Shown here: one piece after another, positions 58,688-63,781 of the stretch
Position numbering within the stretch: position 1 is the stretch's first letter
Layout: each line of letters starts with the position of its first letter
Assembly (NCBI GenBank): GCA_947178125.1
Contig: CAMWXB010000004.1
Location: 46,418-110,417 of the forward strand
Length of the DNA: 64,000 nucleotides
From: an uncultured Lachnospiraceae bacterium
GTDB lineage: Bacteria; Bacillota; Clostridia; Lachnospirales; Lachnospiraceae
Reading direction: 5' to 3'
Notes under the pieces: generated by a model
Seen by the model: only the letters and a program-made list of their open reading frames with translations
Told to the model about the DNA's origin: nothing
Database searches by the model: none
Translations under genes and position numbers: made by a program

Positions 58688-60646
58688 ATGGCAAAATTGA
58701 CCAACGATGCGCTGGTATTTACGAACGATAATTGTATCGGCTGTAATAAGTGTATATCAGTGTGCCCTGTACTGACTGCTAATTATGCAGTGAATGAGAA
58801 TAATCAGAATAAGATCGTAGTGGATGGAAAACAGTGCATCAGCTGCGGAGCCTGTTTTGATGCCTGTGAACATCAGGCGCGGGAGTATTGTGATGATACG
58901 GAACGTTTCTTTGAAGACCTGCGGAAGGGGGAAAAGATTTCCCTGCTTCTTGCACCTGCTTTTCTGGCAAATTACCCGAATGAATACGCTTCTGTACTGG
59001 GTGGCCTGAAAGAAATGGGTGTTAATCGTATTATCAGCATCAGCTTCGGTGCGGATATTACGACGTGGGGATATATCAATTATATTACCAGGAACAAATT
59101 TAAAGGCGGCATTTCACAGCCGTGTCCGGCAATCGTAAGCTATATTGAAAAATACATACCGGAACTCATTCCGAGCCTTGTGCCTGTGCATTCGCCTTTA
59201 ATGTGTGGTGCCATTTATGCCAAAAAGTATATGAAAGTGCCGGACAAGCTGGCTTTTATCAGTCCCTGTATCGCGAAAAAGAACGAAATTGAAGACCCCA
59301 ACTGCGGCGGATATGTATCTTATAATGTAACATTCGACCATTTGATGAAATACGTCAGAGAACACAATATTTCCGGGAAGCCGGTGTCCGACGAAATAGA
59401 GTATGGACTCGGTTCTATTTATCCGATGCCGGGCGGCCTGAAAGAAAATGTATACTGGTTCTGCGGCGAAGAGGTCTTTATCCGTCAGATAGAAGGGGAG
59501 CGGCATGCGTACGAGTTTCTGGAGGACTACAAAGAAAGAGTCCTGAACGGAAAAGAACTGCCTTTTATGGTGGATGCGCTCAATTGTGCGAAGGGATGCA
59601 TCTATGGAACAGCGGTAGAGGAAGAGAAAACGAAGAGCGACGATACGCTTTACGAAGTGCAGAAAATTAAAGAGGCGAGTAAACGGAATGGTAAGAAGAG
59701 CGCATGGAGCAGGAATCTGACACCGAAACAGAGACTGGAGCGGTTCAATAAACAGTTCAGACAGCTGGATATCAATGATTTTATCAGGCATTATACGGAT
59801 AAATCTGCAGAGGTCAGGATTAATTATCCGGATACTTCCGAACTGAATGCTATTTTTGAAACGATGGAGAAAACGCAGACGGAGAGCCAGACGATCAACT
59901 GTTCTGCCTGCGGCTATAAGACTTGTCAGGACATGGCGGCAGCGATCTATAATGGCTGTAACACAAGAGACAATTGCGTTTATTATATAAAAGATGCCGT
60001 CTATAAAGAAAAACTTCTTGCGGAAGAGCTGTCTGCGGAGATGCAGGAAAAGAATGAAGTGATTGAGATGAGAAATCAGCAGATTTCGCAGGTGATTGGT
60101 GAAGTTACCGTTGATTTTGACAGTCTGGATACTTCCATTAGCGAGATGTCTATGGGGAATAACAGCAATGCGGAAGAAAGTACCGGTATTTCCATGTCCA
60201 TGAGTGAGGTCGTGACATTCTGCGACGATCTGCGTGCCGCGTTGACACAGATTCAGGGTCTTTTGGTGAAGCTGGAGGAAAATAACCTGGAAATCACCAA
60301 TGTCGCGGAGGAGACCAACTTACTTGCGCTGAATGCGAGTATTGAAGCCGCAAGAGCGGGTGAGTCCGGAAGAGGTTTTGCAATCATTGCGGAGAATATT
60401 AAGAAACTTGCCGATTCTTCCAAGGATACGGCGAGCGACAGTGATAGAAATAAAGAAGAGATACAAAGTGCAATCGCGAATCTGTTAGGAGATGCCGAAA
60501 AACTGATCGACATCATTGACAGCGTTAATGTCCGCGTAACGAATCTCGCGGCATCCACAGAGGAAATCGCGGCATCTGCAGATGTGATCAGTACGATTTC
60601 TTCGGATTTAAGAGGAAAGCTGAAGGAACTCGAGAGCGGGAACTAA
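58688..60646 (+). CDS. Cytoplasmic [FeFe]-hydrogenase-like sensor with methyl-accepting chemotaxis domain
   Basis: 2x[4Fe4S] [26 protein letters not shown]-cluster-like [38 protein letters not shown] Fe-S motif; MCP hairpin [38 protein letters not shown]; no TM segment. Confidence 0.92.
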
Positions 60647-61554: not shown

Positions 61555-61582
61555 TTGACAAATTAAAATCACATGGTATAAT
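61555..61582 (+). promoter_or_regulatory. Consensus sigma-A promoter
   Basis: TTGACA (61555-61560), 16-nt spacer, TATAAT (61577-61582). Confidence 0.85.
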
Positions 61583-61588
61583 AAAACC

Positions 61589-61915
61589 ATAAACAAACAA
61601 ATTCACATAGATATCACAGAAGAAAGCGAGGTACGGACCACCGAAAACTTAAACTGAATCCATTTTAAAGTACAAATGAATAAGGAACAAAAGACAAGGC
61701 AGATAGAGGAAGCCGAAAGGCTGAATCTACAGGAATCGTAATCGAGTACAGAAGAGAAAGTAACGAAGCACAGAAGAAGAGAGAAGAAGCCGTTACAGTA
61801 TATTCATACGAAAGAGAAATGGAAAGAGTACGAAAGAGGAAAAATGGAGGTATAGGCCCTTGGATAGTGCAGTATAGAAGCGGGTGTTGATCGAAAGGAT
61901 TGATGCCCGCTTCCT
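61589..61915 (+). ncRNA. Candidate structured non-coding RNA, purine-rich, ORF-poor
   Basis: ~330 nt downstream of the consensus promoter with no ORF in the supplied track; AAGCCgaaaGGCT hairpin inside AGAT..ATCT; 3' stem GAAGCGGG..CCCGCTTC at 61877-61913. Confidence 0.6.
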
Positions 61916-62134
61916 CGTTGTGCTGACAAAGACAACATAAATCGTCATAATCGGACGTAAATAGAAAAATTATGTGGTAAAATGTAGGAATATAGGTTAT
62001 GATATACTATATATAGTATAGGTTGAAAAATAATTTTTTAACCGCGAATTTGTGCCTGTGCGCAATATCGCAAGATGGTGTTTGCGTTCAAATGTCGCAG
62101 ATTGATGGATACGACAGAGTGATTGGAGGCTTGT

Positions 62135-63781
62135 ATGGGAAAATTATTTAATCGAAAAAAACATCTTTTTCAGGAGGATGAATTGGAAGATGAAGAGGAT
62201 GACGAGATAGAAGACGATGAAGATGAAATAGAAGACGATGAAGATGAAATAGAAGACGATGAAGATGAAATAGAAGATGACGAAGAAGATGATGAAGATG
62301 AAATAGAAGATGAAGATGAGATAGAAGATGAAGATGAAGACGATGACGAAGATGAAGACGATGACGAAGATGAAGACGATGACGAAGATGAAGACGATGA
62401 TGAAGATGAAGATGAAGACGAAGATGAAGATGAGATAGACGAAGAAGATGAAGAAGATGAAGAAGAGGATGAGGAGACCAGAGCGGCGAACAGGAGGCGC
62501 TATAGGCGTAAGCGGCGTATCAGGAATCAGATAATCGCGTATGCGGTCGTGATTCTTTTTCTGGCAGGACTGGTGGCCGGAGGTGTTGTTGTGGGACAGA
62601 AAATTTCTGCTGTTGTGAAGGAAAAGAAGCAGGATGAGCTGCAGGATGCACAAATAGAAACGGATGAACCGGAAATACCGCCGGAAAATATGATTGTTGA
62701 GACTCCGCCTGAGGTGGCGGTGCCGACGGAAGAAGAGCAATTGGAAGAAATCGTTAATAACAGCATTTCTACAATGCCGATAGAGGACAGGGTAGCAGGC
62801 CTTTTTATTGTCACGCCGGAGGCTCTGACAGGGGTTCAGACTGTTACGAGGGCAGGTGAAGGAACACAGGAGGCTTTGGAGAAATATGCGGTCGGAGGTT
62901 TGATTTATTTTGATAATAATATCATCGATAAAGACCAACTGGCAGAGATGTTATCGAATACCGTCTCAATGAGCAAATATCCTGTTTTTCTTGCAGTCGA
63001 TGAAGAGGGTGGAACGGTCAGCCGCGTGGCAAACAGCAATATTGAAGTAATCCAGGTGGATGATATGGCAACGGTTGGAGCGGGCGGCGATACTTCGACG
63101 GCTTATGAAACGGGAGTTACAATAGGTTCATATTTGAGCGCTCTTGGATTTAATCTGAATTTTGCACCTGTGGCCGATGTGGTGACAGCAGAGGATGGCG
63201 GAGTATTAGGCAGCAGAAGTTTTGGTATGGATGCGGGTGTCTGCGCAGATATGGCTTCCAACGTGGTGAGTGGTATGCAGAGCACTGGTGTCAGCGCCTG
63301 CCTGAAACATTTTCCGGGAATCGGCTCGGCGGAAGAGGATACGCATGACGGAAGAGTGGAGATATCCAAAACGGCGGAAGAATTGCGGGCTTCCGATTTT
63401 ATTCCATTTCAACAGGGGATTGGGGCTGGAGCGGATTTCGTTATGGTCGGCCATGTTACGGCACCTGCATTGGATGCAGAAATGCCATGTTCTCTGTCAA
63501 AAGCAGTCATTACGAATGTTCTCCGTGAAGAGTTGGGATTTGACGGTGTTGTTATAACGGATGCACTGAACATGAGTGCAATTACTGAATACTATACGCC
63601 CGAAGAGGCAGCTGTGCTGGCAATCGAAGCCGGCGCAGATATGATTCTGATGCCGGAAGATTTTGAGGCGGCTTATAATGGATTGTTGACGGCAGTACAG
63701 GAGGGCACGATTTCGGAAGAGAGAATTAATGAATCTCTGAAAAGAATCTACCGTATCAAATGCAGGAATAAATTGCAATAG
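62135..63781 (+). CDS. Membrane-anchored glycoside hydrolase family 3 (NagZ-like) protein with long poly-Asp/Glu N-terminal tail
   Basis: Acidic repeats, RRRYRRKRR basic stretch, TM IIAYAVVILFLAGLVAGGVVVG, GH3 VFLAVDEEGGTVSRV..NFAPVADVVT..CLKHFPGIGSAEEDTHDGRVEI..DGVVITDALNMSAI. Confidence 0.93.
   Translation: MGKLFNRKKHLFQEDELEDEEDDEIEDDEDEIEDDEDEIEDDEDEIEDDEEDDEDEIEDEDEIEDEDEDDDEDEDDDEDEDDDEDEDDDEDEDEDEDEDEIDEEDEEDEEEDEETRAANRRRYRRKRRIRNQIIAYAVVILFLAGLVAGGVVVGQKISAVVKEKKQDELQDAQIETDEPEIPPENMIVETPPEVAVPTEEEQLEEIVNNSISTMPIEDRVAGLFIVTPEALTGVQTVTRAGEGTQEALEKYAVGGLIYFDNNIIDKDQLAEMLSNTVSMSKYPVFLAVDEEGGTVSRVANSNIEVIQVDDMATVGAGGDTSTAYETGVTIGSYLSALGFNLNFAPVADVVTAEDGGVLGSRSFGMDAGVCADMASNVVSGMQSTGVSACLKHFPGIGSAEEDTHDGRVEISKTAEELRASDFIPFQQGIGAGADFVMVGHVTAPALDAEMPCSLSKAVITNVLREELGFDGVVITDALNMSAITEYYTPEEAAVLAIEAGADMILMPEDFEAAYNGLLTAVQEGTISEERINESLKRIYRIKCRNKLQ

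Follow-up and report, generated by a model that had tools for sequence, protein, structure and literature searches.

A predicted stand-alone RNA gene of the Lachnospiraceae made of ribosome-binding-site-like units and a micro-ORF closing at a terminator-type hairpin

The window, by which we mean the whole stretch of DNA analyzed here, consists of 64,000 nucleotides from an uncultured Lachnospiraceae bacterium. Upstream of a gene for a GH3 protein, it carries a plus-strand promoter with the hexamers TTGACA (61555-61560) and TATAAT (61577-61582) separated by a 16-nt spacer. The hexamers score 12/12, the highest value in the region, and a TG precedes the -10 element, which makes it an extended -10; a shuffled region contains 3.8 sites with a score of at least 9/12. 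The promoter is followed by a predicted RNA of about 335 nt that is terminated by a hairpin at 61877-61913. The features of the locus are as follows.

61555..61582, plus strand: sigma-A-type promoter TTGACA-N16-TATAAT with extended -10 (TG); 12/12 in 80 of 90 close homologues, at least 11/12 in 72 of 101 distant ones
61589..61925, plus strand: predicted RNA gene, with the 5' end about 7 nt past the -10 and the 3' end just beyond the hairpin; limits from homology within the genus
61601..61612, plus strand: conserved 5' block ATTCACATAGAT, genus form, from an alignment of 29 homologues
61625..61652, plus strand: inner unit AGCGAGGTACGGACCA followed by CCG AAA ACT TAA, with a dead start position and a stop three codons later; weight-matrix (PWM) score 29
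61710..61722, plus strand: small hairpin AAGCC-GAAA-GGCT with a GAAA loop, seen in the fold; an insert that varies between lineages and is missing from most relatives
61760..61796, plus strand: helix GUAACG (61760-61765) / CGUUAC (61791-61796) around a length-variable purine-rich loop, from covariation in 61 homologues
61798..61809, plus strand: small hairpin GUAU/AUAC, 100% paired in 61 homologues, with a both-sided change in one pair
61846..61877, plus strand: last unit, Shine-Dalgarno GGAGG (61846-61850) and micro-ORF TTG GAT AGT GCA GTA TAG (61860-61877; M-D-S-A-V-stop), with conserved start and stop
61877..61913, plus strand: terminator-type hairpin GAAGCGGGTGTTGATC/GATTGATGCCCGCTTC with its base at the micro-ORF stop codon, from covariation and the U-rich tail of relatives
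62135..63781, plus strand: membrane-anchored GH3 protein with a polyacidic N terminus (Pfam PF00933), the downstream neighbor, outside the RNA

The perfect hexamers and 16-nt spacer reported in the initial annotation are borne out by the full score and by the conservation of the promoter, and the positions it gave for the locus and for the arms of the hairpin are correct. In a nucleotide search of 61 genomes, homologues with about 67-86% identity turned up in 34 of the genus's 37 genomes, and most of the alignments start at or beside the promoter and stop at the hairpin. In an alignment of 29 homologues the promoter hexamers are invariant, conserved blocks alternate with length-variable inserts, and no long reading frame is conserved. 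Perfect (12/12) promoters are kept in 80 of the 90 close loci; family-wide, a promoter scoring at least 11/12 lies upstream of 72 of 101 loci, compared with 6 of 99 downstream flanks and none of 101 shuffles. Predicted RNA lengths across the family range from 130 to 507 nt, with a median of 347. The sequence 3' of the hairpin resembles an intrinsic terminator, with a T fraction of 0.55 over 14 nt and a TTTT run in 49 of 103 loci; the U-tract of the window itself is weak. With its own promoter, its own terminator and unrelated neighbors, the predicted transcript has the features of a stand-alone small RNA, and we conclude from these comparisons that the locus is a real, conserved, strongly promoted small RNA gene of this kind.

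That much of the earlier reading, a conserved and strongly promoted noncoding RNA locus standing alone, holds; its assignment to a raiA-type, 6S or large ornate RNA does not. Folded as a single sequence, the RNA is more stable than shuffles (z = -3.8), largely because of the hairpin at 61877-61913. This hairpin, the terminal stem GAAGCGGG...CCCGCTTC already picked out by eye, is real and strongly covarying, with changes on both sides in 12 of its 16 pairs and 97% of cells paired. The GUAACG/CGUUAC helix is 82-100% paired in the 61 homologues, with both-sided changes in two pairs. The RNA body is mainly unpaired purine-rich linker with length-variable inserts; in the middle of the RNA, length and inserts range over tens to hundreds of nucleotides while units resembling a ribosome-binding site (RBS) persist. 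Covariation is thus confined to the 3' hairpin and two short helices, the conserved core consists of RBS-like repeats and a micro-ORF, and the description of a structured "ornate" RNA was mostly wrong. The GNRA-like hairpin AAGCCgaaaGGCT noted earlier exists in this sequence as a variable insert that most relatives lack. A second proposed hairpin, GGaccaCC, falls inside the conserved inner unit, where its pairing has no covariation support: the GG...CC pairs of the unit are invariant. The covariation scan did not recover a long-range stem, CCAUUU/AAAUGG ahead of the last unit, that had seemed plausible by eye in some relatives.

Rfam has no match anywhere in the window at gathering thresholds and none inside 61555-61915 even at E<=10, so that the check for 6S, raiA and similar RNAs suggested by the initial annotation returned nothing at the locus; a scan of 32 other loci gave no relevant match. 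Both 6S and raiA RNA are, like the present one, conserved stand-alone RNAs of Firmicutes. They differ in that the 6S RNA of this genome (RF00013, 68 bits) lies elsewhere, on contig C73, with no 6S match at the locus, and in that raiA (RF03072) matches neither the locus nor the genome, nor the control genomes. The main texts of two structured-RNA surveys (PMC8632094, PMC11109978) contain no fitting Lachnospiraceae or glycosidase-linked motif, and an unnamed entry may stand in their supplementary motif lists. The RNA family is outside Rfam and was not found in the literature searched. That it is nevertheless a new compact structured RNA (a riboswitch, ribozyme, scaffold or raiA-like RNA), as first proposed, is quite improbable: the fold z-score and the covarying helices speak for it, but beyond the terminator those helices are short only, the middle of the RNA varies in length and inserts while the RBS-like units persist, and Rfam offers no match. 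Structure-based RNA searches and ORF callers both miss this RNA because its conserved core is made of translation signals, not of a fold.

The most conserved block of the family, GGAGGUANRGRCCANUGGAY..., can be read as a five-codon ORF that closes at the hairpin and is preceded, across a 9-nt spacer, by a Shine-Dalgarno sequence. The locus had been called ORF-free, and there is indeed no plus-strand ORF of at least 30 aa inside the RNA, but the block in the window contains the five-codon micro-ORF at 61860-61877 behind GGAGG. Other frames fared poorly in comparison with relatives. The frame of a 22-codon ORF beginning at ATGAATAAGGAA (61677) is not maintained, and minus-strand ORFs of 51 and 44 aa, which are to be expected because the top strand is purine-rich, have no counterpart among the homologues.

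In about 95 loci the start codon of the micro-ORF is UUG, GUG or AUG and never CUG, and codon 6 is UAG, UGA or UAA and never UGG, a result that the search pattern itself had fixed in part. For this reason we built a covariance model of the last unit and hairpin (R1) from 57 sequences and searched 395 Lachnospiraceae genomes with it. Among the 103 complete matches, 102 open with NUG and close in frame at the base of the hairpin, compared with 48 and 12 loci that have a stop there in the other two frames; as the training set held the TG of the start codon and the T of codon 6 constant, these counts are partly built in. The stops are UAG in 51 loci, UAA in 41 and UGA in 10, and the ORF has 5 codons in 78 loci, 6 codons in 22 and 7 or 8 in the rest. 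More independent of this bias are the six-codon ORFs, the mixture of stop codons and the inner units with AUG. In the six-codon ORFs, which are largely free of it, codon 6 is a sense codon and the stop has shifted to codon 7. Comparison across the family shows that the last unit is under selection as a start-to-stop ORF, and by every comparative sign it appears to be translated.

The encoded peptides diverge (DSIV, DEIV, YSEE, DTSFK, GPEVH). Because they vary, it seems to be the act of translation that matters, and the peptide itself is unlikely to be the product that counts. A micro-protein gene, or a decayed coding gene, whose product matters would account for a micro-ORF that looks translated; it is very improbable given that the peptide changes in both sequence and length across the family and that no longer ORF in the window is conserved on either strand. 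The leading edge of an initiating ribosome lies at +15 to +18. By the model, 86 of the 103 loci have the hairpin base at +18, counted from the last start codon, a placement blurred by a refold that pairs the micro-ORF with the U-tract as well.

The last unit is one of a series. The conserved content of the RNA is 1-5 RBS-like units GAGGUACRGWCCA, the last of which is the micro-ORF unit, and each is laid out as a Shine-Dalgarno sequence GAGGU, a fixed spacer ACRGWCCA, a start position and an early stop. The short members of the family reveal repeats such as AAAGGAGGUACGGACCACCGAAAACGUAAG with the micro-ORF unit at the end. A weight matrix finds a mean of 1.5 units per RNA (range 0-5), compared with 0.02 per shuffled RNA and 0.04 in downstream sequence; in the window it finds two, at 61625-61644 and 61844-61863. 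Across 105 inner units, 86 have CCA, CCG, AAG or a similar triplet at the start position, and the other 19 have AUG or UUG. Those with AUG or UUG have a stop within five codons in frame in 17 of 19 cases, against 2 and 7 in the other frames. The start-less units have one in 73 of 86, against 19 and 29, an excess explained in part by common ancestry of a fixed motif; the frame statistic of inner units is suggestive only, because among homologous sequences a stop stays at a constant offset whatever the cause. In the genus form of the RNA, the purine-rich linkers contain recurring motifs that resemble GUACNNAAGA, for example at 61745-61755 and 61827-61838; these are possibly eroded units. At one locus (L295; G081:C71:61000-62800, minus strand) five units or more repeat every 58 nt, and most of the inner ones have GGAUGGU in place of GGAGGU, which in several of them makes a weaker Shine-Dalgarno sequence.

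As to function, we infer, tentatively and with something short of even confidence, a stand-alone regulatory RNA that acts in trans on the translation-initiation machinery, its inner units holding and its last unit initiating. At the inner units, 30S subunits, or a factor recognizing ribosome-binding sites, would be retained without productive initiation. On the last unit a single ribosome would be loaded, its leading edge up against the stable 3' hairpin; this ribosome would initiate, make a throw-away peptide and recycle, and while docked it could protect the 3' end of the RNA. In this way the RNA would serve to sense or titrate either free ribosomes or a regulator of translation. A sharper version is a ribosome trap in which the start-less array parks 30S subunits and the final five-codon mini-gene parks an initiating ribosome at the hairpin, the whole forming a titratable brake or gauge on initiation; we regard it as rather unlikely. 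If the ribosome model is true, the RNA would give the cell an unusual means of gauging or braking translation initiation.

Minigenes of the lambda bar type are very short ORFs behind a ribosome-binding site, in which it may be translation as such, and not the peptide, that counts. The axe-txe minigene (PMC8708949) shares this arrangement of a very short ORF behind a ribosome-binding site. Such minigenes sit within other genes or operons, whereas the units described here form an independent RNA gene.

We prefer the ribosome reading because the relation of start to stop is kept both in the last unit and in those inner units that have a start codon. CCA and CCG are poor start codons, and the conservation of the inner units could reflect a protein or RNA ligand instead of ribosomes. 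The conserved spacer, with its invariant CC, is not needed for ribosome binding and provides no significant extra pairing with 16S rRNA. An extended antisense to the 16S 3' end, suggested by the resemblance of AAAGGAGGUGAUCCAGCC to the unit, was rejected: spacer pairing is no better than in shuffles, for a 16S tail taken from general knowledge, the 16S 3' end not having been found in this assembly.

Somewhat unlikely is a sponge for a partner other than the ribosome, with units that mimic the ribosome-binding sites of mRNAs and so sequester an RNA-binding protein or a C-rich sRNA (a Shine-Dalgarno blocker, as in the RosA/RoxS case), the micro-ORF reporting occupancy. This reading keeps its weight because the CC of the spacer is conserved and the inner units seldom have a start codon; the units are also nearly identical, and their spacer is conserved beyond the Shine-Dalgarno sequence. 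There is precedent in RosA of Bacillus subtilis, described in outline as an sRNA sponge of RoxS (PMC8216469), which is of the same kind, a Firmicute sRNA that sponges another regulatory RNA. For the present RNA no partner was found: the copies of GGTACRGWCCA inspected outside it look like chance, are mostly intragenic and suggest neither partner nor target. To our knowledge, RosA is not a tandem array with a micro-ORF at its terminator.

Sponges of the CsrB/RsmZ type are likewise stand-alone and strongly transcribed, with repeated motifs that resemble ribosome-binding sites and a terminator at the end, traits that are predicted from sequence in the present case. They differ in carrying GGA in hairpin loops, where this RNA has GAGGUACRGWCCA, a presence independent of CsrA and a last unit that is a micro-ORF. 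CsrA as the general target is ruled out, since 50 of the 119 genomes with strong matches to the RNA lack CsrA and there is no phylogenetic association (p = 0.08); the GGA is not conserved either, most inner units of the genus reading GAGAGG. If the RNA is a sponge, its repeated unit would be a bait for finding the partner.

The RNA that we read, tentatively, as acting on translation initiation is widespread. A 21-base motif from its 3' end matches 97 stretches of genome contigs, mostly from Lachnospiraceae; the few matches from other taxa (Alkalibacillus, Latescibacterota and others) come without the remaining parts of the RNA. R1 matches 150 of the 395 Lachnospiraceae genomes (126 of 306 genera), and a broader covariance model of the 3' end, R2, matches 208 genomes and 169 genera. 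The RNA is thus present in more than half of the sampled genera of a family that is dominant in the mammalian gut. Outside it, the same Shine-Dalgarno sequence, micro-ORF and hairpin occur in G846 and G852, two congeneric genomes from a different family of the order, and the remaining matches inspected in that order are chance. A search at the level of the class gave weak matches only; a match in G944 comes from a contaminated assembly. In single genomes (L212, L225, L229) the 3' element occurs twice per region, from about 200 bases to 8 kb apart. Six pattern matches were found in viral contigs and only one of them, in an IMG/VR contig (L132, 4466-4850), is this RNA. There the RNA body lies, without a promoter, in a GC-rich contig of the viral collection; the upstream junction is near the predicted transcription start, and a chimeric assembly is possible.

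In 73 close loci the GH3 gene lies downstream of the RNA on the same strand, and the micro-ORF closing at a terminator hairpin, with its start and stop conserved in 102 of 103 loci, has the anatomy of a leader peptide. A cis-acting leader or attenuator, in which ribosomes translating the micro-ORF would open the terminator and allow read-through into the next gene (GH3 in the window), is nevertheless improbable. Of 101 loci across the family, 30 are followed by GH3, 38 by a different gene on the same strand and 33 by a gene on the opposite strand, so that the first downstream ORF is something other than GH3 in 71. Because a third of the downstream genes face the opposite way, the RNA does not appear to be the leader of its neighbor. 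In five loci a flagellin gene separates the RNA from GH3, the gap contains a promoter-like sequence of GH3's own, and the final codons of the peptide lack the conservation typical of stalling peptides. The leader-peptide attenuators and upstream-ORF candidates described in the texts of PMC8632094 and PMC11109978 share the strong Shine-Dalgarno sequence, the very short ORF and the terminator hairpin at the stop; the present RNA differs from them in having no constant downstream gene, a neighbor that is often on the opposite strand and a peptide that is not conserved. On these comparisons the association with GH3 is a matter of lineage history and apparently not the RNA's general target.

The gap between the RNA and GH3 contains a palindrome-like sequence, ATATACTATATATAGTATAG, at 62003-62022, and relatives have the related TATAGTATAC at the same place; the element may be a promoter or operator of GH3. 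The GH3 protein (62135-63781) begins with an extended tail of mostly acidic residues, and a patch of basic residues and a predicted membrane anchor lie between this tail and the catalytic domain. The acidic tail is missing in several relatives. At the loci with a flagellin gene between the RNA and GH3 (L033, L055, L083, L095 and L117), leaders with CsrA-type sites AAGGATG and AGGAGGG/GGGAGGG were seen. Elsewhere in the window, at 58688-60646 on the plus strand, lies a gene for a 652-aa fusion of the large-subunit domain of an iron-only hydrogenase with ferredoxin and methyl-accepting chemotaxis signaling domains.
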